Origin: Populus alba
Lineage: Eukaryota > Streptophyta > Magnoliopsida > Malpighiales > Salicaceae
Reading direction: 5' to 3'
Length of the DNA stretch: 64,000 bases
NCBI RefSeq assembly: GCF_005239225.2
Contig: NC_133301.1
Span: 5,233,157 to 5,297,156, forward strand
Below the pieces are notes generated by a model. The model was given only the letters and a program-made list of their open reading frames with translations. It did not search any database and was not told the DNA's origin. The position numbers were made by a program, and so were the translations under genes. Below, piece by piece: positions 11,269-61,835 of the stretch. Position 1 is the first letter of the stretch. Each line of letters starts with the position of its first letter.

Positions 11269-11548
11269 TGTTAAAATGTCAATGATCTTGCACAATTTAA
11301 CTGTGAATTCACACTTTATTCAGTAGTATTTCTTTGGCTTAAATAACCATTACAACTTGGAATTATGGGAAAACAAACCACATCTTCTTAGCCGAAGATT
11401 GTGGTAACAGAAAAAACAAAAAATCACAAAACAATGACTAAGTCATAGTCAGTACTAACAAAGCTATACTGACTTGCACTAACAAACTAACTTACTGGCT
11501 CCTGAAAGACAGGAGCTTTATTCTAATCAAAACAACTAGTTTCCAACA
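11269..11548 (-). repeat. 3' LTR of the copia element
   Basis: It is 280 bp, starts TGTTAAAATG and ends TTTCCAACA on the plus strand. It aligns end to end with 15766-16044. Confidence 0.95.
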
Positions 11549-11561
11549 TATCCTCCCCTAA
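11549..11561 (-). promoter_or_regulatory. Polypurine tract
   Basis: The minus strand reads TAGGGGAGGATA directly against the 3' LTR. This is the expected plus-strand primer site. Confidence 0.85.
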
Positions 11562-11584
11562 ACTATACTTGATAACAAGTCAGT

Positions 11585-14500
11585 TTATATTCTTGATACT
11601 TTGCACTCCCACAGATCACGTAGCCTTGTAAATGATTCCAACTTCAAAGGTTTTGTCATGATGTCTGCCACTTGCTCACGAGTACCACAATGAATTAATT
11701 CTACAACACCTTCCTTTACCAAATCATGTAAAAAACAAAATTTCACTTCTATGTGTTTTGTTCTTCCATGGAGAATTGGATTCTTTGATAACTTTATAGT
11801 GGAACTATTGTCACAAAAAATCTTAACACACTTACAGAAAGAGAAACTAAGACTGTTGAGCACTCTTTTCATCCAAATGCTATGACATGCACATGCAACA
11901 GCAGCTACATACTCTACTTCGGTTGTGGAGAGTGTCACCATTGGTTGCTTTCTTGAGCTCCATGCAACTGCTCCTTTACTTAGAAAATAAACATAACTAG
12001 ACGTGCTTCTCCTATCCTCTACATCGCCAACATAGTTACTGTCAGTGTAGACTTTGAGATCATCTTCAGAATTCTCTGCACTTCTTCTATAAAACACTCC
12101 TAAGTTGGTAGTTCCCTTCACATACCTGAGAACCCTCTTTGCTGCTACCATATGTGAGGTTTTAGGATCTGCCATAAATTTGCTTAACATGCAAATGACA
12201 AAAGTAATGTTAGGTCTAGTCACTGATAGATACATTAAGCTGCCAATTATTTGCTTGAACAAGGTTGAATTATCACTGTCTTCTCCACCATCTTTTATCA
12301 ATTTCGTGCCTGACATGATAGGATTTTTTACCGGATTGCAGCCTCCCATTCCAAATCTTTCTAAAATTTCCCCAACATACTTCATTTGACATAGATGTAT
12401 TCCTTCACAGCTCTGTTGAACTTCTACTCCTAAAAAGTACTTCATTTTTCCCAAATCACTCATGTTAAATTCTAGTTTCATGGATTCCTTTAATTTTTCA
12501 CATAGCTCCACATCATTTCCTGTGTAGATTAAATCATCCACATAAAGACTAATAATTAAGCATTTACCTCCATCTGTATGATTAAGAAACAGTGTGTGTT
12601 CATGACTGCATTTCTCAAAGCCTTCCTTCATGAAGAATCCTTCAATTCTACTGTACTAGGCTCTTGGAGCCTGTTTCAAGCCATAGAGAGCCTTTTTTAG
12701 TTTTAAGACTTTATGCTCTTCTCCTTTGCAAACATATCCTTCTGGCTGCTCCACATAGACAGCTTCCTCTAATTCCCCATGAAGAAATGCACTCTTGACG
12801 TCTAGCTAGAAAACTGTCCATCCTTTTCGTGCTGCTAGAGCCAATATCAGTCTTATGGTGTCCCAACGTGCCACAAGTGCAAAAACTTCACTGTAGTCGA
12901 TCCCATGTCTTTGAGCATATCCTTTTACTACCAGGCGTGCTTTTCATTTATCTACCTCTCCCTTTTCATTCAGCTTGGTTCGAAAAATCCATTTTACATC
13001 AATTCTTTTTATCCCTTCTGGTGGACTTACTAGCTCCCATGTCTTATTCTTTTCTATAGTTTCCATTTTCAAATCCATAGCTTTCCTCCATTTTTCCTGT
13101 TTTACTGCTTCATCAAAGTATATTGGATCATCATGTATCATAAAACACATTGAGTCATCAGGAAAACCAGCTCCATGAACATAATCATCCATCCATCTAG
13201 GTGTTCGTTTAACTCTTCCTGTAGAAGAATTATTTTCCCCTGCGTTATCATTTGTTGGTGCAACAAGACCATTTTCCCTTGAAGTGTCACCATCTTCATT
13301 TTCCAGTACCTCAACATTCTCCCCTGTCTCAACATTCTCCCCTGATCCAGTATCATCATTTCCACCTCCTATTTCAATATCATTTTCATCTCCCTTTGTA
13401 CATAAATCATCTCCTTCAATTGATTTCTCATTATAGTCATTGATTTCTCCATCTGTATCTTCCCAGGTAAAGATATCACTCACATCATCATCACTCTTCT
13501 TTCAATTCCAGCCCTCATTCTCATCAAACACTACATCCCTACTAACAATCACCATTTTGGTTTTAGGATCATAAAGCCGATAAGCTTTAGATTCTTCACT
13601 AACACCTATAAACACACATCTATGACTCTTCTCATCTAACTTTGTCCTCCCTCTGTCAGGTACATGCACATTTGCAATGCAGCCGAAAATTTTAAAGTGC
13701 TCAACATTTGGTTTGTTGCCACTCCAACACTCTTCAAGAGTTTTTCCTTTGACAACCACAGTTAGACTCCTATTTAACACATGCAGTCCCCATCGAACTG
13801 CTTCTGGCCAAAATAGTTTAGGCATTTCCTTCTCTAACAGCAGGCATCGAACCATATTTAAGATAGTTCTATTCTTACGTTTTGCCACTCTATTCTGTTG
13901 AGAAGTGTAGGCAGCAGTAAGTTGCCTCTTAATGCCATGATTAACACAAAACACATTGAATTCGTTGGAAGTAAACTCCCCTCCTCTGTCTGTCCTCAAA
14001 CAACATATATCACATTATGATTCCTTTTCCACAAAGCTTTTAAATATGTTAAACATGGCAAAAGTTTCACTCTTCTCGACTAAAAAATAAATCCAAGCCT
14101 TTCTATTGAAATCATCTATAAAGCACAATAAGTACCTTTTTAGATTGTTTGATGTTGGAGTGATTGGACCACACAAATCTGCATGCACTAGTTGAAGCCT
14201 TCTTGAAGCTCTCCACTGACTCTTTTTAGGAATGACTATTCGATGTTGTTTTCCACGATGACACATTGTGCATTCTGTGTTTATTGCTTTGAGTTGAGGA
14301 AGGCCTTTGACAAGTTGCTTGCTCTCTAAGGTTTTAAGACTCTTGTTGTTCATATGGCCATAACGACGATGCCACAGCTCTGATAAGTCATCCATACTTG
14401 TTATTAAACAGTTTGAAGGCTGAGTAATCATAGTAGCTAGTAAAACAAACATCTTAATTGCTGTCATAAGAGTTTGCATAATAAGGCCTCTCGTAGGATG

Positions 14501-15685
14501 ATATATTTTACAAGCCTTATCCTTCATAACAATAGCAAATCCCTTCTCTTGAAGCTGTCCAATGCTTAATAGGTTATTCTTGAGCTCAGGAATGAAAAAC
14601 ACATCTCTTACTACTTGAGTTAGTCCTGCAGTCACAAGTTTAACACTTCCTTTACCCATCACCATCAGTTTTGCTTCATTGCCCAGCTTGACTGAGTGTC
14701 TGAACTGCTCATCCAACTCTATAAACCAATCTTTAGTTCCTGACATATGATTAGAACATCCTGAGTCTAGAAACCAGACCTCTTCTTTGCTTGTTTTCTT
14801 GTCCTGAACGTAAGCCATTAGTAGAAGTTCTTCCTCTTCATCCATCTCAGCATAATGTGCACTCTTTTCCCAACTAGGACACTCATTCTGAAAATGTCCT
14901 AGTTTGTGACATTTATAGCATTCCACAGTAGCTCTGTTGAAACTCTGTCTTCCTCTACCACGGCCACCTCTCCAAACTCCTCGTCCCCTTCTTCCTACTT
15001 TGTCTTCATGAGTAACCTTAAGAACTTGCTCTTCTTCTCCTTGACTTTTCATCCTTTGCTCATGCACCAGAAGACTGCTTTGAAGCTCATCTATAGTCAT
15101 TGTAGTCATGTTGTTAGATTCTTCATTTGAACAGACCATGTAGTTGAATTTGGAAATCATTGATCGAAGAATCTTTTCTATGATCATTGTTTCATTTAGA
15201 TTTTCACCATGAGCCTTCATTTTGTTGGCTATAGATAAAACTCTAGCAAAGTAGGCATTTATAATTTCTCCTTCCTTCATACGAAGAATTTCAAAATCAC
15301 AACGTAATGATTGTAAATGTGCTCTTTTAACCCTTGTTGAGCCTTGAAATTTTTGTTTCATAGAGTCCCAGATTGCCTTTGATGAGCTTCTGTCAAGAAT
15401 GGTTTCAAGCATGTCTCGTTCAATTGCTTGATATAAAAGATTACTTGCCTTCAAATCTTTTAACTTGTTTTCTTCATACTCCTTCCTTTGAACATCAGTG
15501 AGTGGACGACTTTCTGATACTACTAAGGAGAAAGACCGTGCTTCTCCTACGACATCCACCATGATGCCACGATCTATAACATTCCAATACTCTTTGGAAT
15601 GAAGCAGATTCTCCATCAGTTCAGCCCAATGATCATAGTGTCCCATAAACTTAGGCACATAGCCATTGCTGCTTCATTCTGTCAT
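11585..15685 (-). pseudogene. Copia gag-pol polyprotein, one frame with six nonsense codons
   Basis: One reading frame runs from an ATG at 15685 to a stop at 11585 with no frameshift. Order: copia gag (YDHWAELMENLLHSKEYW near the start); CCHC knuckle CYKCHKLGHFQNEC; protease with DSG in WFLDSGCSNHMSG; GAG pre-integrase LWHRRYGHMNNKSL with its His/Cys residues; integrase core (HADLCGP, LRTDRGGEF); reverse transcriptase with YVDD in SLYVDDLIYTGND; RNase H ending VADIMTKPL. In-frame stops lie at codon 4 (15674-15676) and at about 14015, 13499, 12942, 12806 and 12657. The last two sit where CAG (VF-LDVKSAF) and TGG (RA-YS) codons are expected. The integrase motif reads TSQQNRVAKRKN, so the catalytic Glu is Lys. 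The element cannot move by itself. Confidence 0.93.
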
Positions 15686-15750
15686 TTTAAAGAAACACTC
15701 ACTCAAATCTTTCTTTTCACTCTTGTATTCACAATCAGGCCTTGTTAAAA

Positions 15751-15763
15751 GGCTCTGATACCA
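15751..15763 (-). promoter_or_regulatory. Primer-binding site, initiator Met-tRNA type
   Basis: The minus strand reads TGGTATCAGAGCC two bases inside the 5' LTR. This is the complement of the 3' end of plant initiator tRNA-Met and the usual minus-strand cDNA primer site of copia elements. Confidence 0.95.
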
Positions 15764-15765
15764 AT

Positions 15766-16044
15766 TGTTAAAATGTCAATGATCTTGCACAATTTAACTG
15801 TGAATTCACACTTTATTCAGTAGTATTCCTTTGGCTTAAATAGCCATTACAACTTGGAATTATGGGAAAACAAACCACATCTTCTTAGCCGAAGATTGTG
15901 GTAACAGAAAAACAGAAAATCACAAAACAATGACTAAGTCATAGTCAGCACTAACAAAGCTATACTGACTTGTACTAACAAACTAACTTACTGGCTCCTG
16001 AAAGACAGGAGCTTTATTCTAATCAAAACAATTGGTTTACAACA
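15766..16044 (-). repeat. 5' LTR of the copia element
   Basis: It is 279 bp and the partner of 11269-11548, with about eight substitutions and one single-base indel between the two. It carries the element promoter by family rule. No TATA box was singled out. Confidence 0.95.
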
Positions 16045-16049
16045 TATAC

Positions 16050-18420
16050 TTCTTAATGCGTTATTGTGGTCATTATAGGAGAAAATTTATTTCCTCAATA
16101 TATAGAGTGTAGGGGATATTACCTTTACATGGAAGCTTTTTTTTCTTCTTCAAAGTAGCACAATAGAAATAAAATATTAGATAAATAGCATAGTTGAAAA
16201 CTTTATTAAAGAAATAACACAGTTTAACAAGTTGTATACAACATTTGCGATTCTAGTCAATTAAAATGCCAAAAACCTTTTTTTCTCATTTTATTCTCCT
16301 ATCCTTCTCATTTCCTTCCATCACTACCACTGTTCTAGTTTCTCTCTTAACCACAACAACCTCCCTCACTTCAACATAACAAACCACTTGATAGTCTCTC
16401 TGTTTCTCTCTCTCTCTCTACCATGATAGTCTATCTCTCCTCTCACCCACATGGCTTTGCATAAATTCAGCCGCCACAGCCACATTGTGCCACCATCACC
16501 ACCCACTTTCAACAATATCAAGTATATTACACACAACCCTTTATTAATTTGATATTTTTTGTGCTGATTTTTTATTTTAATTATGTTAGGGTTAGGGTTT
16601 TTTAAGTTACTTTAGATATTTATTGAATTAGATATATAGTACATAAATTGAGTTGATATATTAAATTGTTTGGGGAGAAATTGATGAATTAAGTTTTTGT
16701 TGATTATGTTAGGGTTAAAGGTGTTTTTTAGTTTAAAATTTTGTTGAATTAACTATATATTTTGTTAATTAGCTTTAAATTGCTCGAATTGAGTTGATAA
16801 ATTATATTATTTAAGGAGAAATATGATGAATTAGGGTTTCGTTGATTAAAGCTTTGTCAAACTTATATATCTTGACTAATTTGTGAAATCGATAAATTAG
16901 GGTTGGATGTCATTGTGTTGTTTCACATAATGTCTCACATAATTTGATTGCTATGATTTAATGATGGTATTATTTCCAGTACCAATAATAATATTACTTA
17001 TAATGGAGAAATTAATGAATTATGAATTGCTAGATTAAATATGTATCTCTGCAAGCTAAAAAGATCTATATGTTGTCTAATTAGATGAAATTTATTTGAA
17101 ATTAAAATTGACTTTACTTAGAGGATGAAAGTCAGGATACATCATATTCATTATATTGATGCACTCATTTCATGCGTTTGACTTTTTTTTTTTAATAGAT
17201 GAACAACATGTCATTCATTGAAATCAAGATCCAAGTTTTGGGACTCAAAAGCTCAATTTTTAACTTGATTTCACTTGAAAACCCTCCAAAAACTTTCTAG
17301 CAATCTTAATAAACCATTTCAAACCCCAAAAAAACATTTTAATCATTCTAAAAGCTTAAAATCCAATAGAATCAAAACTGACTTTACGAATCCTGGTCTT
17401 TTTATGGTAATTTCAAAGGAAAACATTATCGTTATTGAACTTCTCCTCTCCGACACTAAGTCATTAATATCAAGATTGATTTTTTTGTTATTAGAATATG
17501 GTTGACTGAACTCTCTCTCTTTTTCTTAATTTTTTTTTCTAGTGACTTGCCCTCTCATCTCTCACCATATAGGGATTGAAATGAAAAAAAATAAAGTTTA
17601 AGCATTGAAAAAGAATATATAAACAATAATATGGACCAAGCATAAAAAATTTAATTCAAAGACCATACAATAGTTTTCCACACCCTGTGAATAGTAAAAA
17701 GAAGATTTTTTTCAGTGTTTTGTTGTTTCAATTTATAAAATTAAATCTTATTTGTAATATTGACTTTTAATTTATTGTTGGGCCATTGCTCACCACCACG
17801 AATACACCACGAATACACTAGAGTACTCAAATTAAAATAAATTATAACACTAAAGGTAAAAATATTAATTTTTTTATTTTGAAAAAAGAAAAAGAAAAAA
17901 AAAGGTGGGGGGGGGGGATACCACAGCTTCACGTTAGTGTCGGTGGCTGTAGCTAAGTACAAATTTTCCATCATTCCACCACTAGAGCCTTTCCCCATGG
18001 CTGTTAAAAGCAATGAAAGCTTCATAATATAATAACAAGACTTAAGTATAATTATGATAATTAATTAAAACAGTGGCATGGCCTCAGGTTGAGTGAAAAT
18101 AATTAGTTTAACGAAGACAAGTCACCAGACACCAACTTAACTTAAATCCCAAGTCAATAATTACCCCATTAATAATGAATGCTGTTTTCGAGGTTGGATT
18201 TGGTAAAACTCTGACTAGCTACCACGTTGAGTTGCCTTCCATCAACAACTTTTGTCTTACTTATATTAGTTTTTGTTTTTTCCTTAGAGGGTTTGTTTGA
18301 TAACTTGAGAGCTAGTTTTCTGCCTTCCTTTCCTGTTTTAGCATCAGGACTTAATTTTCAATTGCCTTTCCAAACGGGTCTCTTGTAGTCGTTTACAAGC
18401 AACAATATTTATGTTGCCCA
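16050..18420. other. Intergenic, no gene supported
   Basis: AT-rich sequence. Around 16300-16500 it is pyrimidine- and CCA-rich with a (CT)n run at about 16400-16420, resembling a 5' leader, but no extended reading frame follows. A G homopolymer lies near 17907-17918. Frames at 17275 and 17741 are low-complexity. Confidence 0.5.
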
Positions 18421-34149: not shown

Positions 34150-34453
34150 GTTAGTGGTATAGCTTTGAAACCTGATTCATCTTGTGGGTTAATCCGAGAT
34201 CTAGTCGATTTGGGGTTGAAACTGGATTAGATTGAAGGAAAAACAAAAGAAAAAAAACTCGGTGACTTAGCTGACCCGGCGGATTGACCCAGCAACCCGT
34301 TGACCTGGCAAAACTCAGCCGCAAACCTGTTGACTTTTTTTTTCTTATTAAAACAACATTGTTTTGATTTTTTTTTAAAATGATTCGGCCAATCTGATAA
34401 CCTAAAAAATTCAGAACCTGGTTGTGGACCGGGCGGGTCTTAAAAGTTAGTGG
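34150..34453. mobile_element. Short non-autonomous hAT-like element with 8-bp target duplication
   Basis: The body, 34158-34445 (288 bp), is flanked by the direct repeat GTTAGTGG (34150-34157 and 34446-34453). The left end reads TATAGCTTTGAAACC and the right end, reverse complemented, TTTTAAGACCCGC, a degenerate terminal inverted repeat. The inside is rich in GACCCGG/CCGGGTC-type words (TGACCCGGCGGATTGACCC). The same ends and words occur in the larger element at 56159-57062. An 8-bp duplication is the hallmark of hAT insertion. No transposase is present. Confidence 0.7.
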
Positions 34454-38589: not shown

Positions 38590-41267
38590 ATGGCAGAGAA
38601 ACCTGAGCCAGTGAAAGTGTCATACTGCCCAACATGCTCTCTCCCTGCAGAGTATTGTGAATTCGGGTCTGATTTCGAGAAATGCAAGCCTTGGCTCATC
38701 AAAAACGCCCCTGAACTCTACCCTGATCTCCTTAAAGGTATGAACTTTTCTTTTCTTTTCTTTTCTTGTTTCAATCTTGAAAACCCAGAAGACCCCTGCT
38801 TGTTTCCTGCTGTAATGACTGATTTTAAGACGCAAAGAATTGATCTTTTCATTTGGGTTGGCAGAGGCTGACGAAAAAGAGGCTGGGAGGGTTTCGGAGC
38901 AACTGCACTCATTTGGAATTTCCTCAATTGGTGCTGATGGGTCAGCTTCTTCTGTTCACTCTGGTAACTTTTGTTTTTTACACTTACCCAGTATGAGATT
39001 TTAATGGGTGTTTGTGTCGAGAAACATTACACGGGGCATGATTTTGTTCTCCAAAATTTTATCTTTTTGTTCATTGCCTTTTCGTTTCAGGAGAGACATC
39101 ATCATCTAAGCAAGAAGAAGTGAAAAGGCTTCCAGGTGGCAAAATCAAGAAGAAAGTAAGGACTTGTTTGTGTGTCTTGGAAGCTTTTCATTCTTTGATA
39201 GCATTGCATTCAAGATTGGCCAAACGCATGTGAAATTTCAATTCAAAAAATTAAATTGTTTTGATAAGTTAACCAGCAATCATCATCGACATGCTTCCGT
39301 TTCAGAAATGAGATTGTGGCTTCCTCTGTAACTTATGATGCTCAATTTGCTTTATTGCATTTGATCATGTATGTGACACATTTGCTTTCTGTGATATTTT
39401 TCACCTCCTCTGTAACTTGGAATCCCAAAGTGGCTTGCATTAGAGGTTTGCTTTTTGTTATATGATGGCAAAGATGTGTGGATGAAGTGAAACTGTAAGA
39501 GCGAAGTGCTTATAGAACACGTTTGTTGGATGGTTTTTGTCTCATTGAGGAAAAATATTAGTGACTATTGGCATTTTAGTTTATGAGATGATTTTGTGCT
39601 GGATTTAATTTTCAACTAAAATTATAATGATCTGGCATTACTGCATGGAATTTTTATTTCACTTTGCATTATGGCCTTTTAGTTTATGAGATGATTTTGT
39701 GCTGGATTTAATTTTCAACTAAAATTATAATGATCTGGCATTACTGCATGGAATTTTTATTTCACTTTGCATTATTCCATATAGGTAAGACAAGAAGTTG
39801 TAATTGAGAAGGTTGTTCGCAACAAGCGCAAAAGTATCACCATTATTAAAGGATTGGACCTATTTGGTAAGCCTGATGCTTTGTTGACTTCAAATCATTA
39901 TCTTGTGGTTTTTTGCGTTGATTACTAATTGCTAAAGTTACTAGTTGTATCTCTTATGATAAATATTTATGTTCAGGTATTAAATTGAGTGATGCTTCCA
40001 AAAAGCTTGGGAAGAAGTTTGCTACTGGAGCATCTGTTGTTAAGGTGCACCAAATGCCTCCTATGATTAACCAAATTCATCACCTTTTGTTCCTCTGAAT
40101 GATAAAACTTTTTATTCCTTGTTCATTTCAGGGTCCAACAGAGAAGGAACAGATTGATGTTCAAGGAGACATAGCTTATGATATCGTGGAATTTATCACA
40201 GAGACCTGGCCTGATGTAATTTCTTCTACCAACCATTTTCCACCTTCTCCTTATCTCCTTCCTGACATCCTTCTTAGTTGTCATTCTTCTTTTAGACATA
40301 GCATGTTTTTGAATTATGAATAAGAAACAAGTCCAAATTCAGTTGACCAAAGATTTGTTCTGTTTTTTTTTTTTTTTGCGAAAAAGGAACTTTTGAGTCA
40401 AAAGCTGATTTGTGGGTGTTTAGTTAATTTTGAAAGACTTTTATTTTGAAACCTCAAGACATTCAAAACTATGGCTTTCAGAGCCAATCCTGAATAGTTT
40501 GATGTTGATGAAAGTTTATACATATGCAAGTGGAGAATTCACTCTTAAGTTCTGCGTTGTCTTACAAGTTTATTTTCTCGCTCTCGAGTTACATGTGATA
40601 ATCTTTGCTTTTGCCAACTTAGTTATAGTGTGATGATGATGCTGAAGAAAGATTACAAATGTCCAATTCTCTTAGGGAAAGATTCATGCTAGTCTGTACA
40701 AAGATTACAGACTTGGCAAGAGTTTCCTTTTGCTCCTATAATGGTTCTGCTACCTTTTGATTCATAAATTATGCTATAGTAATTATGTTATGTGTAGCAT
40801 GTGTTACATTTACATACGTGAAAAATTGCCTATTATTCTTTATTGGATATTTATACAATAAGATCATGTTCATGTTATGTGATTGCTATTTCATTCGAAC
40901 AAATATTTATATTTGTATGAAAAAAAACGATGTTTGAAATTTGCACAATCAAAAGTTGCATAACTAATGCCCATGGCTTTGGTTGGTTTGCAAGCTTCTT
41001 GTGTGCTTTGAATATGAATATCGTTTGTCAATTGTTAGTAGAAGTTTACTGCGTGTGCCTCACTTATGAATAATGGGTTTTTGTTTTCACAGTAGCACTT
41101 CACTGTGTTCTTAAAAACAATCTGTTTAAACTCTAAATTGCCTTCTAAATTCTGTTTTGTATCTCTCTTCCATGCTTAACTGGCTTACATTCCACTGTTT
41201 TTCCTTTCAGGTTCCTGAAACCGCCATTTACTTCATTGAAGATGGGAAAAAGGTTCCAGCTGCTTGA
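38590..41267 (+). CDS. DENR: Density-regulated protein (DENR), SUI1-domain translation factor, 7 exons
   Basis: Exons: 38590-38737, 38865-38963, 39091-39155, 39785-39866, 39977-40044, 40132-40215 and 41211-41267. All introns are GT-AG, and the joined 603 nt give 200 residues plus TGA. The N-terminus carries four cysteines (13, 16, 23, 32) in YCPTCSLPAEYC and FEKC, the metal-binding region of DENR. The middle is acidic and Ser-rich. From residue 105 (VRQEVVIEKVVRNKRKSITI) a SUI1/eIF1-like fold follows, with GLDLFGIKLSDASKKLGKKF, ASVVKGP, DVQGDIAYDIVEFI and the end FIEDGKKVPAA. Length matches the family (about 200). DENR pairs with MCT-1 on the 40S ribosome for post-termination recycling and re-initiation, in the cytosol. 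The frame is intact and all splice sites are good. Intron 3 contains a recent 103-bp tandem duplication. Confidence 0.96.
39574..39775. repeat. Perfect 99-bp tandem duplication (period 103) in DENR intron 3
   Basis: 39574-39672 and 39677-39775 are identical, starting TTTTAGTTTATGAGATG and ending TTTGCATTAT. They are separated by the 4-bp GGCC. The second copy ends 9 bp before the acceptor of exon 4, so the normal polypyrimidine and branch region may be duplicated. Confidence 0.95.
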
Positions 41268-44102
41268 TGTTTGCCTTCCAAATGAAACTCAGATTGATTT
41301 TTGATTTTGAAATGACCCATTTGTAAGCGCCATTGACAGAATGGAACTTCTGATATCCCTTTTGTTTGGATGAGTTCTCACAAAATCAAGTATGTTTAGT
41401 AGGGGGAAAAAATGCAATGGAAGCATGCATTAATGGAGCTGGAGCATCGTATATCTCCAATAGATTCATGAATTTGGATTGAAATCTTTTTATGTTTCTT
41501 TGTGTCGTGTTTGTTGAATCTAACCTATTAAATTCAAATGGAATAGACGTGATATAGTGCAGATATACAAGTAGTGATTTTGTGCCAGCTAGTGCTTTGA
41601 TAGAGCCAATGCTTTGATAGCGAACCTGTAGCTGCGCGCACACATTTTGGGTTACCTCTTCAGCCATGTCAACGAAGGTTGTCACCATTGAGATTCTTCG
41701 TTCAATGATAATATATCCATCTTATTGGATGTGCCCTCAAAGCGTCAAGCTGCCAGCATCAGCTGCTGAAGACATAGCATGAGTTCATCTCAAACTGCTA
41801 TTATAGTTTAGAGTATGCTCCCTCAAAATTCTTTAAAAGATGTAAATCTGACATAGATGGTATTTCTCTTACAATTCTAAAAAAAAAAAAAAAACCCTCG
41901 AATCCACTATTATTATAACTAGAAAATCCACTATTATTATAATTAGAAAACTAGTTAGTGTTTTTTTTTCTTTAACACTTTGTACTCTAGGGTTTGTTTT
42001 CATTTTATTATTGATGAATTTCTGTTTCTATTAAAATAATAAATTGAAGTGACATTTTTTTTTTTTTAACATTGAGATGAAAGTGACAAGGAAATGAAAT
42101 ATTAATTAGTTGGTAGAGGAATCAAAAATTGAGAAAATGAGTATCTATACATGTCAGTAATCTCATAATTGAATGTATTATATAATTCGTCGTAAAGATA
42201 TTATTGAAAGTGACAATTATGAATTTAGACGTTATAAAAGTTAGTGTGTAATTGGATATGTATATAATATAATCGATGTTAAAAGAATTATGAATAAGCA
42301 TATTGATCTCTTTCCTTTATGGAAATCACATACGTATATTTTATAGCTAGTTGTTAAATCATAATGTTAGTTTACTTGCAATGATAAGCATGGATATTGT
42401 CATATGAGTTTAGTTTGAAATGCGAATCATAGTGTTCATTCATATGGAAATGGGAATGATAAGCAAGTATTATTGAATTTGAGTTGAATGTATTCAACAT
42501 TGGTGTTAAAATTTTAATAGACATTACAATTTCTTTTTCTCGTAAAAAATCATGGACATAAGTTTTCTTGATGACTAATAACACCCATAATGCTATATAT
42601 GTTGAAAGTCTATATCACGAAGTGGATTATCGCTAATTGTGTTGTTTCCCTGTTTATAATTTTGTTAGGTACTTTATGTATTATGAATACTTATAATTAT
42701 GCTAACAACTTCACATAGAAATGTACTAAAATGGTATAAGTGTACTTCTAACATTCAATAATTAAGTCTTTTTTGTAATGTATACATGTGTGTATACATG
42801 TCTGTATCCATTTCACATATGTTTTTCTCTAAATAAAAAATAAAAAAAATATAAGATGAATGGTAAAAAGTGATGAAAAAGAATCGAATGGAGAAATAAT
42901 TGAACTGGTGAGTGGTTGAAAGCTACTGTGTGTATATAATAGAGTTATTTGATAACCTAGAGGATTATGTTACAAATTTGATAAGTTGTGTTACCCAAAT
43001 AATTGAATTGTGTTACCCAAAGAGATTAAGAAAATGATGCGACCTCGTGATCACGTGGTCACGCAACCCACAATCAAGATTGAGATCTGATCTTGAAAAG
43101 ACGAAATAGGTCTAATAGGAGTGCGACACAATGAAAACTTGCCCCAAGGCACCAACACTATTGGAATGAGTAAATGACGCCACGAAGCCAGTTAATCTTC
43201 GATAAATCAGATTTAGTTCGTTTAAGAACTAAAGAATGCAAGAATCACTCTCATACGTTAAAACTGAAAAATTCAGAAGTAATAATCATCAAAACTACTG
43301 AAATTTAGGTTATATATGTTTAAATAGTTTTTAAAAGTAACCCTAATGGATCTATCCTTATGGGCTGAATTGACCCCCAAACAAAACTGACCAAAAAACC
43401 CTAAATTGAAAAGCTCATAACCTGATCCAAACAAGCCTTGGACCGTAGCTCAAAACAAAGTTTTAATTAAGCTCAAACATGAAAGAAAATAATAAAAATA
43501 ACTAATATGTCATTAAATACCATCAGCCCTTCTTTCCTTGTGTAGCTAGGATGAATAAGGAATCCTTATAAGAAAAGGATTCTGAAATATTAATGAATCA
43601 TTGTCACACTTGTAGATTATATTGCAGCTCATTAAAGATCTTTGTGGAACTAGAAAATTTCCAAAACCAACTACCACATTCTTGTAGGAAAAGAATCCTA
43701 ACCAAATAGGAAGTCCACAAGTCAAATGAAAGTAAATAACAAAATTCGTATAACCTCTATTGACCAGTATTGCGGTGCCTTCCCGAACTCCGATTGACCT
43801 GAATTTTTAACCTAAGATAGGAAAACATGTCTGGAGAGTTCATATAAAATATTAACCCAATCCAACGGTCGGATTTTGTAATAATTAATTAAGATGATGC
43901 AATTATCATTTTTTTTTATATCTTCCAATTAACTCGTATTTCGATGAAATTAGGCTACATCGATAGAGTTCAACGGTTATGATCAAGTTAATTGAGATTA
44001 ACCGAATCAACATTATTTGGTTTAATATTAAACTTGGTTTAAAACTCAAGTGCTTGATAACTATGTTATAATTAACCCCTGCAGCTTTGAATTTTAAGCT
44101 AT
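41268..44102. other. DENR 3' flank and intergenic sequence
   Basis: 41268 to about 41800 is balanced and probably holds the 3' UTR. From about 41880 the DNA is AT-rich and gene-free. From about 43020 to 44100 the text (ATGCGACCTCGTGATCACGTGG start, later CCTTCCCGAACTCCGATTGACC and CCAACGGTCGGATTTTG) resembles the LTR of a Ty3-type element. No second LTR or coding domain was found, so a solo or partial LTR is only a suggestion. Confidence 0.4.
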
Positions 44103-44465
44103 AACTAATTTTTGTATTCTTGTATTTTAATTCTTCTTTCACCAAGCCAAAAATCTTTTATAAAAGAGATTGTTTCTTTACTTCCAAGGTTGGAATAATA
44201 AAATAAGCACAACATTCAATATTAACTAATTTTCGTATTCTTGTTTTTTAAGTCTTCTTTCACCAAGCCAAAAATCTTTTATAAAAGCGATTGTTTCTTT
44301 ACTTCCAAGGTTGGAATAATAAAATAAGCACAACATTCAATATTAACTAATTTTCGTATTCTTGTTTTTTAAGTCTTCTTTCACCAAACCAAAAATCTTT
44401 TATAAAAGCTATTGTTTCTTTACTTCCAAGATTGGAATAATAAAATAAGCACAACATTCAATATC
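44103..44465. repeat. Three-copy tandem repeat, 121-bp unit
   Basis: Units start at 44103, 44224 and 44345 with AACTAATTTT(T/C)GTATTCTTG and end ACAACATTCAATATT. Units 2 and 3 differ at only a few bases, and unit 1 is slightly more diverged. Each copy contains the TATA-like word CTTTTATAAAAG followed by a C/G-poor stretch and TTCTTTACTTCC. No gene lies immediately next to it. Confidence 0.95.
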
Positions 44466-48559: not shown

Positions 48560-49501
48560 TCAGCTCCCTCTAGTAATCATCTCTTTGTACTTCATGATAG
48601 AATTCATCCTCTGCAACTTCAACTGCTGCTTGAACCTATTAATGAAATCATCGGCTTTAGCATCCACTTCAGTGTCATCAAACTCAGTAGAGGTCTTCCC
48701 TTCTTTCACGGTAGCTGGCCTCCGAGATTCAACCATGTCATCTTCTTCAAAATGGGAAAAAGCAGATTTTGTACTTGCAGATTTCTTCATTTTCTTCGGT
48801 AGCTTCTTGGGTACTTCACCAGAAGTTGGCTTCGTGTCTGACTTGGATTTGCTCAGTTTATTTCCTTGTAACTTGCTGTATATCTCCTCAAGAGTCTGTT
48901 CTTGATCCTCCTCTTCCTCTTCCTCTAGTTGTTCTTGAAGCTGTCCATCAAGCTCTTGTTTTTGGTCATAAATGTGTTGAGAAGTGAAATGGGCTGGCGT
49001 AGTTTCTTGATCTCTGTGGTTATCAGTAATGGTGGGGTTAGTGGGTTCGTGGGATAAGTAATTGTAGAGGTTGATGGACTTGAGCCTCTGCAACATTGAA
49101 GGAGATCTAGAAATAACTGGCTGGTTTTGATTTTGGTGGTATTGATAACCTTGTTGAGGGGTTTGATGATGAAGAGTGAAATGCTGGTCAGATTCTTGAG
49201 GTTTTTCAAAAGTTAAGGTTGTAGGTTCTTGGGATCTATAACTATAAAAGTTGATAGATTTGAGTCTTTGTAGTACAGAAGGAGATCTAGCAAGCTGGTG
49301 GCCATGACCAAGACCAAGACCATGACCATTTTGTGCTTGAACATGTCTTTCTTGTTCTTGATGTTGGTCACTGGGTTTGGGGGTGGCTAGGCTTGAAGTT
49401 ATAAAAATGGTGCCAATCATGAGATTGAGAAGCACAAATAGAACAGTTGGGGTAAGCCAACTATTCATAGAAGCCCAGATTGACATGGATTCTTCAAGCA
49501 T
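48560..49501 (-). CDS. DUF4408/DUF761 protein (A70-like)
   Basis: 313 residues in one exon. The start chosen is the ATG at 49501 (MLEESMSIWASMNSWLTPTV), because DUF4408 proteins of this type begin directly with this motif. The frame stays open 40 codons further upstream, but that stretch is Pro/His-rich and unlike the family. Residues 8-35 form DUF4408 with one membrane segment (TVLFVLLNLMIGTIFI). The middle is Gln/His-rich and contains the block SPSxLQRLKSINxYxY twice, at 73-88 and 133-148. A Glu run follows at 193-199. The basic linker KKLPKKMKKSAST leads to the C-terminal DUF761 (DAKADDFINRFKQQLKLQRM, 280-299). Relatives include the PAMP-induced A70 protein of Arabidopsis. The molecular function is not known. 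Confidence 0.9.
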   Translation of the reverse strand: MLEESMSIWASMNSWLTPTVLFVLLNLMIGTIFITSSLATPKPSDQHQEQERHVQAQNGHGLGLGHGHQLARSPSVLQRLKSINFYSYRSQEPTTLTFEKPQESDQHFTLHHQTPQQGYQYHQNQNQPVISRSPSMLQRLKSINLYNYLSHEPTNPTITDNHRDQETTPAHFTSQHIYDQKQELDGQLQEQLEEEEEEDQEQTLEEIYSKLQGNKLSKSKSDTKPTSGEVPKKLPKKMKKSASTKSAFSHFEEDDMVESRRPATVKEGKTSTEFDDTEVDAKADDFINRFKQQLKLQRMNSIMKYKEMITRGS

Positions 49502-54327: not shown

Positions 54328-54960
54328 ATGAATGTTGAATTAAAACAACATTGTAGACTTAAAATTCAGAATTTAGAGTCTAAAGGTCTTATACAAAAGT
54401 CTAAGTCACCTTGGTCATATGCAACTTTTTATGTTAACAAAAATTTTGAAATTGAATTAGGCACATCAATGTTTGTTATAAATTACAAACCTTTGAACAA
54501 AGCTTTAAAATGGATCAGGTATCTAATTCCAAACAAAAAAGATTTGTTACAAAAATTACACTCTACATTTATATTTTCAAAGTTTGATATAAAGTCAAGA
54601 TTTTGGCAAATCTGAATTCATCCAAAAAACCATTACAAAATTGCATTCACAATTCCTTTTGGTTCATATGAGTAGAATTTTATATCATTCGGTTTATAAA
54701 ATACTCCCTCGGAATTTCAAAGGATTATGTATGATATTTTTAATTTATATTCAAAATTATGCATAGTTTATATTGATGATGTTCTTATATTTTCCAATTC
54801 CATATAACAATATTTTAAACATTTACCAACATTCTTTTATGTTGCAAAACATAATGGTTTAATTGTTTCAAAATTAAATATTTATCTTTTCAAAACTCGT
54901 GTTCATTTTCTTGGTAATAACATTTTCCAAGAAACTATCAACCTATTAAGAGATCCCTTA
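54328..54960 (+). pseudogene. Reverse transcriptase region of the viral fossil
   Basis: The open stretch at 54328-54612 includes KGLIQKSKSPWSYATFYV and FSKFDIKSRFWQI, followed by a stop. It continues with FTIPFGSYE, a stop, TPSEFQRIMYDIFN and IVYIDDVLIFS, with the catalytic YIDD at 54769-54780 intact. This is the best-preserved domain and the basis of the family call. At least three in-frame stops lie within the domain. Confidence 0.88.
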
Positions 54961-56150: not shown

Positions 56151-57070
56151 CTTTAAACCATAGTTTTTAAACCCGGACCGGCCCGGCGGGTCGACCCGGG
56201 ACCCGGCCGACCCGGGCATGGAACCGGTCCGGGTGGAGGCCAAAACCCGTTTGGGAATTGGCCCGGTCAAACCCGGTTGACCCGGTGGGTCGACCCAAGA
56301 CCCGGTCCACCCGGCCAAACCCGGATGAGACCCGGCCACCTTTTTTTTTACTTTCCCTGTCATATGGTGGATGGTCTGGAATCACACCAAGAATGGGGGA
56401 GAGAGATGCCGTCATAAAGAATCGCGACGAACCTTATCAATACCTGTATGAGCAGGTGTCTCATACCGAGCGACTGTAACAGCCAAGCCGGGACCATCAG
56501 ATAGCTGAAAAACTGATTGAATCTTGCTGTGGAACAAGATTAACACGCGGGTTAGGCACAGATGGTATAGTTCATAGATGTTGTAGAAGCAGAAGTGATT
56601 ACCCTTTCCCAAATGTGGGTTCTCCGTATAAAACAGCACGTTTATTGTCTTTCAATGCACCAGCCAATATTTTACCTGCGCTTGCAGTTCCCTTGTTCAC
56701 CTAATTGAAATTCAGAGCAGAGTGAGTGGTTCCTGATCAAAGGTTTGGTGATGAAAATATGGAAATCAAGCACATAACTATAAAATCCTAGAAAAGTAAA
56801 GCTCTTTGCCCAAACACACAGAGAGAAACAATGATGATGTGGTGGAAACTTAATACCACGGGAGAACAAATAGTAAAAATGAAGAAATTTGCAGAAGCTT
56901 AATCACATGCAAAACAGTTCTTTTATATTGCAACCATATTATAGGTTTTTTTTTATATATAGGTTTTTTTTGGGTTGACCCGGGTTAACCCGGGTCAACC
57001 CACCTGACCCGTGACCCAGAGGATCGACCGGGTCAATGAACGGGTCGGGTTTCAAAACTATGCTTTAAAC
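56151..57070 (-). mobile_element. Pack-hAT: hAT-type element carrying CtpA protease exons
   Basis: The body is 56159-57062 (904 bp). The left end reads CATAGTTTTTAAACCCGG and the right end, reverse complemented, CATAGTTTTGAAACCCG, a terminal inverted repeat with one mismatch. It is flanked by a perfect 8-bp duplication CTTTAAAC (56151-56158 and 57063-57070) that fits the hAT target preference nTnnnnAn. Both subterminal regions (56165-56340 and 56975-57050) are dense in CCCGG/GACCCGGT words. The middle is unrelated host DNA with two CtpA-type exons. The perfect duplication points to a recent insertion, made into the tail of the viral fossil. No transposase is present, so it must be mobilised in trans. 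Confidence 0.9.
56365..56700 (-). pseudogene. Captured fragment of a C-terminal processing protease (CtpA, S41)
   Basis: Exon-like block 1 (56603-56700) encodes [18 protein letters not shown], then [15 protein letters not shown]. It follows an acceptor TTTCAATTAG and ends at a GT donor. The intron (56527-56602, 76 bp) ends CACAG. Block 2 (56526 down to about 56430) continues in frame: KIQSVFQLSDGPGLAVTVAR, then YETPAHTGIDKV. A short disruption follows, then GVIPDHPPYD at about 56365-56395. This is the Ser/Lys catalytic region and downstream segment of plant CtpA, which trims the D1 protein of photosystem II in the thylakoid lumen. The retained intron shows capture at DNA level, not by reverse transcription. 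It is a fragment with no start and cannot make a protease. Confidence 0.88.
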
Positions 57071-59281: not shown

Positions 59282-61835
59282 CTGTTACTTCTAGCAGCAG
59301 CCAATGAAGCCATAACCTCTGCAGAAAAACATATATGGGTCCATAAACATGCAAGAAGTACTCTTTTCCAATCAGATGTCCAGATTTCTCATACCTGAAA
59401 TTGTAAATTACCTAAATCACGTAACCAGCAAGAGCTCATAACAAAAAACTGTACAAAATAATCACAAATCCAACAGTAAAAATAATATGCAATATCTGGG
59501 TACCATTTCTTATGAGGGTCAGTGATAACTGGTCCTTTCTTCATGCATCAGATATAAGTTAGTGAATGGATTATTTCCTTAGCAAGAAGAGTTGCAAGGC
59601 AATCTAACATAGCAGAAATATCAATGTTAATTAATCGCAGTTATCTCACTAATAAATCATTACATATGCTACTATATACCTGGACGCAAATAGAAATCAT
59701 CATCAGCTTTGACATAATAATCTGCTTCAAAAAGCTGAAAGGCTGTTTTGAAATAGGCCAACCTAATGACAGAAGAAAGGTATTAGAAAACTTAAGGTGG
59801 AAAAAGGAACTGTTATGCTTTGTATGGGAGCTTTAGATATCCTTCCTCAACATCTATGAACATGAAATCTTTGTACTTATCCACCTCTTTCTCAAGCAGG
59901 GCCATTTTCTTTGCATCTTTTGAACGTGCTATTACGAACCTAAATGATAAACCAGTAGCTTGCTCCAACTTGCCATGGAGCAGTAGTGAACTTGGCCTTT
60001 TCAATATGATCAGTTCGTAAGAAACCAATTTTTAAGGCAAAGAGTCACAGCAGAATAAAAGAAACTAAGGGAGAAATAGATGAAGAAACAATATAACCAA
60101 ATTATATTTGAGTAAGAAAAATAATGATCTTATTCAAACGATGTTATCGGCTCAGATAGAAATTGATCACATGTAGTCCTTGACCTTCCAAATGAAGATC
60201 TCATAGAGCTGGGATTATCATTGGTCATCATTGCCAGCAAGTTTCTACAACGATATATTTTAGTTGAACAATGTTACAGGATCACAGAGCAAATATAATC
60301 TATGATTAGACCTTCCAATTGAAGATCTCATAGAGTATTATCATCAGGAGGCTCCTCAAGACTCAAAATCTCAAAAGCAAAACAAAAAATCTTATACAAA
60401 CAGTGTTAGAGGCTCAGACAGAAGTCGATAACATCTATTCCCAGACCTTCCAATTGAAGATCTCATAGAGCTGGGATTATCAATGACATCATTGCCAGTA
60501 AGTTACTCAAAACTTAAAAATATAAAAGTAAACCAAAATATTTTAGTCAAACAATGTTACAAGCTGAGAGAAAAAATAATAAACATCTATTACTAGACCT
60601 TCAAATTGAAAATCTCATAAAGCTGAGATGATCAATAGTCAGCATAGCCAGATCCTCAAGATTTACAATTATGAAAATAAAATGAAACATCTTACTAGAA
60701 CAATGTTATAGACTCAGAAAGAAATGGATAACATCTATTCCTGGACCTTCCAATTGAAGATCTCATAGAGCTGGGATTATCAATGACATCATTGCCGGAA
60801 ATTTCCTCTCAACGCTCCATATTTTAAGAGTAAAATGAAATACGGTGTACTCAAACAATGTTATAGGCTCAGAAAGAATTCCTAGACCTTGTATTTGAAG
60901 ATCTCATCGAGCTGGGATTATCAATGACATTATTTCTGAGCCTATAACATAAAATGAAATATCTTTTCGTACAATGTTATAGGCTTGGACATAAGATGAT
61001 AACATATACTCCTGGACCTTCCAATTGAAGATCACATAGAGCTGGGATTATCAGTGACATCATTGCCAGCCAAGTTCCTCTAGACATGAAATTATAGAAG
61101 TACAACTTTACTAGAATGTACAGTAACAGAGAGAGGCATGGTATTCATTTCTCCTCCCATTAATTCATGGCCCCCATTTGGTTCTTCACGAATTGTAATG
61201 AGATGAGGATGCGATTTCCATTTAATAAAATTCAGATTTTGATTATTATGAAATGCAATCTACATGGCTTAAACAGAGTAATTTCCTCAACTTAAAATAC
61301 AATTACTCATTTTTATAGGATTACTTTATACAGCAAGACTCCAAAACAAAACAGAATAGCATATTTATTAATAGATCATCATCACTGTTCTTGATAAAAA
61401 AAAAAATACCTCTCAAAGCTCTCGACTTTCTACGCAAAAGTCATGGTCGACCTCAAAAGTCCATCTGGGTCACAAGGAAACCAAGTACTTCTAAGTGCAG
61501 CCCGGCGATCACCGGATTCAAACCCGGTTTGAGTCCCAACAAACCCAAGAAGTTTAGGCCTGTCAATCAATGCTCCGTCTACCCGAACCAGAATAAAATG
61601 CTCGAAAAGTGTCCTCAGATTTGCCACAACGAAAAACTGGAACAGGTTTGAGCCTGCAGATCTGAGATAGCGATCCCAGAAAGGCCAGTGAGAAGAGATA
61701 TCAGTGAAAACACTAGAAAAGGTAGAGGGCAACGGGTTGAGGGAGGGATAAAGTTGGGTTTTGAGGTTTTGGGATTGTTGGTGGTTGGGATGGCGGAGGA
61801 GAGGATGAGATGTAGCGGTGGGAGAAGAGTGGCAT
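59282..61835 (-). pseudogene. GT31 beta-1,3-galactosyltransferase pseudogene, 3' truncated
   Basis: Five exon-like blocks: 61452-61835, 59817-59968, 59680-59762, 59504-59603, 59282-59394. Block 1 starts at ATG 61835 ([16 protein letters not shown]) and shifts frame at least twice: stem words [18 protein letters not shown] lie in one frame and [25 protein letters not shown] in another. Block 2: EQATGLSFRFVIARSKD to EEGYLKLPYK, with no GT at the expected donor. Block 3: YFKTAFQLFEADYYVKADDD with the DDD metal-binding motif. Block 4: LATLLAKE and CMKKGPVITDPHKKW, with TGA where Gly is expected before CMKK. Block 5: YEKSGHLIGKEYFLHVYGPI, then a 1-bp deletion. Exons for the C-terminal third are absent. 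Functional relatives are Golgi type II membrane enzymes that add beta-1,3-galactose to glycans (probable B3GALT12-14-like group). Confidence 0.88.
60170..61090. repeat. Intronic minisatellite, about 7 units of 130-150 bp
   Basis: Units begin with GACCTTCCAATTGAAGATCTC and ATAGAGCTGGGATTATCAATG at about 60182, 60311, 60445, 60597, 60745, 60887 and 61017. Each continues with CATCATTGCCAG, an AT-rich middle, ACAATGTTATAGGCTCAGA and GATAACATCTATTCC. Copies vary by substitutions and indels. The array fills most of intron 1 of the galactosyltransferase pseudogene. Confidence 0.92.

Follow-up and report, generated by a model that had tools for sequence, protein, structure and literature searches.

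The feature under study is a 904-bp element in a 64-kb window, by which we mean the whole stretch of Populus DNA that was analysed. It is flanked on both sides by the octamer CTTTAAAC and consists of short terminal inverted repeats, GC-rich subterminal arrays, T-tracts, and a core that is a minus-strand fragment of the plant gene CTPA2, which encodes the chloroplastic carboxyl-terminal-processing peptidase 2. A shorter, gene-free relative lies 22 kb away in the same window (Table 1).

The surroundings contain a mixture of coding and repetitive sequences. A minus-strand open reading frame matches the Populus trichocarpa protein cluster BDE02_18G043000 at 91% over its whole length, and proteins of Salix viminalis and Salix dunnii at 85% and 83%, respectively. 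Further to the left lies an LTR retrotransposon, putatively copia-like from a reading of its ORFs, whose 286-bp repeats are 96.5% identical and surround long minus-strand gag-pol-like ORFs. Closer to the element, there is a 95-aa ORF with a match (E 6.5e-13) to 8r0s, a reverse transcriptase chain entitled ‘Enzymatic polyprotein’ that we take to be a plant pararetrovirus enzyme; a Pfam search of this ORF and two neighbouring ones returned nothing at E ≤ 0.01. There thus seems to be a decayed, pararetrovirus-like relict about 1.5 kb to the left of the element, accompanied by further short ORFs in the region from about 50 to 55.4 kb. Three tandem repeats are also present, two of them young and one, to the right of the element, diverged.

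Table 1. Features of the element, of its gene-free relative, and of the surrounding window
Feature	Position	Strand	Remarks
LTR retrotransposon	11269..16050		see text
Gene-free relative	34158..34453	.	296 bp; more decayed; GTTAGTGG directly at both ends
Young tandem repeat	39569..39775		103-bp unit, two copies, 99% alike
Young tandem repeat	44102..44464		121-bp unit, three copies, 94-97% alike
ORF with Populus match	48563..49498	-	see text
Reverse transcriptase-like ORF	54328..54615	+	see text
Target-site duplication, left copy	56151..56158	.	CTTTAAAC, direct reading
Element proper	56159..57062		904 bp
Left terminal inverted repeat	56159..56175	+	CATAGTTTTTAAACCCG; one difference from right repeat
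Left GC-rich subterminal array	56159..56340	.	followed by a run of nine T at 56341-56349
Tail of captured exon	56368..56388	-	GVIPDHP, seven CTPA2 codons; clear CTPA2 likeness stops here
Insertion in exon	56389..56429	-	41 bp; frame shift; TGA at 56414-56412
Captured CTPA2 exon B	56430..56526	-	97 nt; by homology
Captured CTPA2 intron	56527..56602	-	76 nt, GT...AG; predicted (see text)
Captured CTPA2 exon A	56603..56700	-	98 nt; by homology; carries what we take to be the active-site Ser and Lys
AT-rich stretch before exon A	56701..56945	-	ends ...TTTCAATTAG, with AG directly before exon A; presumed extent
Right T-tracts	56946..56954 and 56964..56971		
Right GC-rich subterminal array	56971..57062	.	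59% G+C; CpG o/e 0.88
Palindrome	56971..57002		perfect, 32 nt; start of right array
Right terminal inverted repeat	57046..57062	-	CATAGTTTTGAAACCCG
Target-site duplication, right copy	57063..57070	.	CTTTAAAC, direct reading
Diverged tandem array	60118..61102		unit roughly 135-140 bp, 67-81% alike; self-match offsets 132, 262, 413, 561, and 833 bp

Ends and arms of the element

An earlier note, made from the letters of the sequence, had described inverted ends, a perfect 8-bp duplication, and GC-rich arrays at this locus, and all of them are present where it placed them. The terminal inverted repeats are 17 bp long and identical at 16 of 17 bases, and the copies of CTTTAAAC form an exact duplication around the whole unit. 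The octamer occurs three times on the plus strand of the window, and two of these occurrences sit exactly at the tips of the element; at the base composition of the window, the probability that two given places share the same 8 bp is about 4e-5. A scan of the window for the end pattern with up to three mismatches gave three matches, compared with a mean of 0.55 in shuffled sequence, and three were reached in 2 of 100 shuffles.

The arms stand out from the window background, which has 32% G+C and a CpG observed/expected ratio of 0.47. The left array, computed on 56159-56345, has 67% G+C and 20 CpG dinucleotides (o/e 0.96), and the right array opens with a perfect palindrome. As a single strand, the element is predicted to fold strongly (z -6.1; none of 20 shuffles was as good). 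We set this fold aside as a sign of function, because inverted GC-rich arms give such folding. The longest stop-to-stop frame inside the element is 102 aa, and no transposase-sized frame was found in its 904 bp, as judged by ORF length, the family search being confined to the protease-like piece.

The captured CTPA2 fragment

The core of the element carries, as the earlier note had also claimed, two S41 protease exons on the minus strand separated by a 76-bp GT-AG intron. The two exons give 65 codons in a single frame across the intron, and the encoded residues match Peptidase_S41 at E 6.6e-21 and the structure of the photosystem II D1 protease, 1fc6, at E 1.1e-21. Among the best 120 of 817 proteins found at E ≤ 0.001 (871 candidates), plant CTPA2 proteins reach up to 92% identity over the whole piece. 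The intron is predicted from its GT-AG ends and its exact register with homologous proteins, rather than from the DNA of the parent gene. Its retention indicates that the piece was captured from genomic DNA and not from mRNA. The AT-rich stretch that precedes exon A may belong to the CTPA2 intron upstream of that exon; the outer limit of the stretch would be set by comparison with the parent gene.

Three features go beyond what the earlier note reported: the gene-free relative, the 41-bp insertion with its frame shift and TGA, and the seven-codon tail on the far side of that insertion. No source of the insertion was found within the window, where the best local scores were 23, compared with 20-25 for 10 shuffled inserts. 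Its interpretation as a remnant of a parental intron is not favoured, as there is no AG at its end. A tblastn search of the window with five full CTPA2-type proteins (E ≤ 1) returned the exons, the GVIPDHP tail, and one match of E 0.70 elsewhere in the window that we take to be due to chance. That match aside, no other CTPA2 match is present in the window, which covers 56 kb on the left side of the element and 7 kb on its right side.

The state of the captured piece was assessed against 182 listed homologues, namely the best 120 of the 817 proteins, selected for their likeness to the piece, and another 62 from 120 listed of 7196. A scan of genome contigs, from which the best 80 of 585 stretches (402 confirmed) bore bacterial names, many of them cyanobacterial, was used only as a source of a CtpA scaffold for the homologue search. 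Four residues of the piece are private or nearly so: Gly9, where 181 homologues have Ser and one has Gly; Lys10, where all 182 have Glu; Pro45, where all 182 have Ser; and Gly61, where 168 have Asp and 14 have Asn. Residue 10 is, we presume, the active-site Glu375 in D1-protease numbering, with Ser372 and Lys397 being retained. The piece therefore resembles the chloroplast CTPA2 or D1-processing protease of peptidase family S41 in the 65 residues that surround the active-site Ser and Lys and in the register of its exons, but differs from it in being only a fragment, without the PDZ part, in having Lys at the third active-site position, and in having its frame broken by 41 bp. The replacement of the active-site Glu by Lys and the insertion with its stop codon mean that the gene piece is dead and that it is no working protease.

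One could still imagine that the element is transcribed and that its CTPA2 piece, as a spliced product or in the form of small RNA, influences the parental CTPA2 gene or becomes part of a neighbouring transcript. If so, a transposon would tune D1-protein processing in poplar; this putative role is highly improbable.

Two further residues bear on the donor of the piece. The three named Salicaceae CTPA2 proteins in the lists, P0064 from Populus euphratica, P0068 from Salix dunnii, and P0075 from Salix udensis, have Phe25 and Asp58, whereas the piece has Tyr25 and Ala58, in agreement with other plants (Ala58 in 163 and Tyr25 in 57 of the 182 listed homologues). Outside these three proteins, Asp58 occurs in only one other of the 182, P0261. 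The chance that six random amino-acid changes would produce both states is about 2e-4, a rough figure that assumes equal rates. Since Tyr25 and Ala58 are absent from the three named Salicaceae proteins, the most economical explanation is a donor that would have been either an older CTPA2 sequence or a different CTPA2 copy, and it may have been a Populus paralogue carrying both residues. No P. trichocarpa CTPA2 appears by name among the matches listed in the two homologue lists.

The gene-free relative and the origin of the element

The earlier note had proposed a search for other copies of the terminal repeats; within the 64-kb window, this gave one diverged, gene-free copy with the same ends. 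Its left end fits the end pattern with three mismatches, and its right end is without the last five bases of the inverted repeat. The flanks of the relative share the 10-bp string AGTTAGTGGT, so that its duplication is 8 to 10 bp long, depending on where the ends are placed. When aligned end to end, the left arms of the two elements are identical at 117 of 190 positions, with 12 gap columns, and the right arms at 57 of 89, with 25 gap columns; none of 500 shuffles was as good in either case, and the T-tracts contribute to both scores. Local alignments of the four arm pairs are weak, with 1, 11, 1, and 84 of 300 shuffles being as good. The plan of the two elements is the same: the left T-tract lies 183-191 bp from the left end in the element and 178-186 bp in the relative. 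Between its T-tracts, the relative has 24 bp by coordinates (one T more if the letters themselves are counted), including AAAACAACATTGTTTT; the corresponding distance in the element is 596 bp or 614 bp, according to the right T-tract chosen. Exact-pattern scans of viral contigs gave no stretch with further copies of the ends or the array, and a protein pattern scan gave 19 matches, none of them a relative; neither scan has any bearing on the poplar genome.

Inverted repeats and a target-site duplication around the unit, host gene DNA inside it, no transposase by ORF length, and a relative without the gene are features of Pack-TYPE elements. No transposase was found either within the element or tied to it. 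The terminal inverted repeats, the 8-bp duplication, the CTPA2 piece with its intron, and the gene-free relative together support a Pack-hAT-type element, and we consider it very probable that this is a non-autonomous, hAT-like Pack-TYPE transposon of the Populus genome with CTPA2 DNA acquired by an element of a gene-free family. The label Pack-hAT given in the earlier note is therefore apt as far as a hAT-like, non-autonomous element with CtpA-type exons and an intron is concerned; membership in the hAT superfamily itself is something that we infer from the length of the duplication and the form of the ends. The 8-bp duplication CTTTAAAC is as expected for hAT elements, and the GTTAGTGG of the relative fits, with a shared string of 10 bp. 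The hAT end consensus is YARNG, and the start of the element, CATAG, agrees with it in the A at position 2 and the G at position 5, but not in the T at position 3.

This imperfect start, together with the lack of a transposase, leaves some room for another superfamily, e.g., a Mutator-type element with a short duplication. We regard this as improbable, as the duplication here is 8 bp long, the high-copy hAT families of grapevine combine 8-bp duplications with ends of 8-23 bp according to passages of PMC2528002, and in PMC8903248 every hAT identified from rice and maize has a duplication of 8 bp. Hardly any credence can be given to a chance arrangement in which a CTPA2 pseudogene fragment lies by coincidence between two GC-rich repeats that are unrelated to each other. 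The gene piece is indeed degraded, as such a reading would have it, but the inverted ends and the exact duplication occur at both tips, for which the duplication alone has the chance of about 4e-5 given above, and the relative at 34 kb has a matching plan.

As to the mechanism and the order of events, we infer from this anatomy an ancestor that would have been a member of the gene-free family, with inverted ends, GC-rich arms, T-tracts, and a short core. Most likely, a break in that core would have been repaired by copying the CTPA2 gene with template switching. The composite may then have transposed as one unit, thereby creating the 8-bp duplication; alternatively, the capture may have happened in a copy that was already resident. 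A block that is bounded by T-tracts, lacks inner arms, and takes the place of a short core is what break repair with template switching would give, and the exact duplication fits both in-place capture and later transposition.

Two variants of the mechanism, both compatible with a Pack-hAT, have to be weighed against this course of events. In-place gap-filling, in which the CTPA2 piece is copied into a resident element by break repair without later transposition, is possible, if doubtful. It is the model favoured for the single-copy Pack-TIRs of animals in passages of PMC8277862, where the break-point distance has a median of 4.6% of the element and 190 cases (67.6%) show 1-36 bp of microhomology at a break point; in our element, the replaced part amounts to about 24 bp out of the roughly 300 bp of the gene-free plan. 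Like our element, those Pack-TIRs, as described there, are short inverted-repeat units with captured DNA in which a small stretch was replaced. Unlike it, they have animal hosts and often lie near their parent, with 160 cases (56.9%) within 15 kb in the same passages, whereas there is no parent, and no other CTPA2 match, in the window. Unlikely, in our view, is a tandem insertion followed by re-mobilisation, in which two nearby elements came to flank CTPA2 DNA that was then moved by the outer ends. This is what Gisby and Catoni, in part of PMC8903248, propose for rice and maize Pack-TYPEs of DNA superfamilies, including hAT. However, such an event would be expected to leave inner ends and arms; a blastn comparison of the element with the window (E ≤ 1) showed no likeness to the arms in the stretch that the T-tracts enclose, nor did the end scan reveal an inner end. 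The T-tracts at the limits of the block are in keeping with a short core having been replaced. The inner arms may have been deleted later.

Precedents and relative ages

The earlier note held that gene capture by hAT elements is less described in woody eudicots, which is at odds with the literature. Gene sequences with introns and exons inside Hatvine-6, a grapevine hAT family, were reported in 2008 (passages of PMC2528002), Pack-hAT elements of maize and rice have been in print since 2022 (passages of PMC8903248), and an excerpt of a flax paper (PMC3544724) mentions gene shuffling by maize hATs. A word search of a 2026 review on plant gene capture (PMC13317346) did not find ‘hAT’ as a whole word. 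Among the titles listed in literature searches, which took in few subscription papers, none concerns this element or CTPA2 capture. Hatvine-6, as far as the cited passages go, is similar to our element in being of hAT type in a woody eudicot and in having a variable interior that matches genic introns and exons, but it has a common transposase coding sequence, 13-bp ends, and a 9-bp duplication, whereas our element is below 1 kb, has no transposase, and has an 8-bp duplication. The Pack-hATs of maize and rice, according to parts of PMC8903248, are likewise non-autonomous with an 8-bp duplication and captured coding DNA inside; in contrast to our element, their hosts are monocots, and one set was searched by the core ends of Ac and Bg, not by CATAGTTTT. 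The element is thus another case of a known phenomenon, well preserved but ordinary, which adds a case and not a principle. It is of use as a clean, small hAT-like gene capture in a tree, for which a gene-free relative in the window lets the captured block be placed in the core.

The earlier note also reasoned that, as the two exons read in one frame, the copy is fairly recent. For the gene piece this is not supported, in view of the 41-bp break in the frame, of Tyr25 and Ala58, and of the small number of codons. Only 4.1% of single changes in the 65 codons create a stop, and the chance of finding none is 0.85 at 2% divergence and 0.61 at 6%; at such values, the absence of stops from 65 codons does not prove youth. 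From these features we take the gene piece to be probably older than had been thought. The insertion event may be of fairly recent date.

The comparison of the arms points in the latter direction. Of 105 substitutions between the element and its relative, 65 are transitions, and 53 of these have C or G in the element and T or A in the relative, with 12 in the reverse direction, a bias that follows in part from the element being richer in GC. At the 25 aligned CpG sites of the element, the relative still has CpG at 5 and TG or CA at 9. Both the transition bias and the loss of CpG would fit methylation-driven decay of the relative. The CpG o/e ratio alone does not separate the two elements, at 0.87 in the relative compared with 0.96 and 0.88 in the arms of the element. 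With moderate trust, the gene-carrying insertion can be regarded as probably younger than its gene-free relative, and it is the contrast between this young-looking insertion and an older-looking gene piece that is worth following genome-wide.
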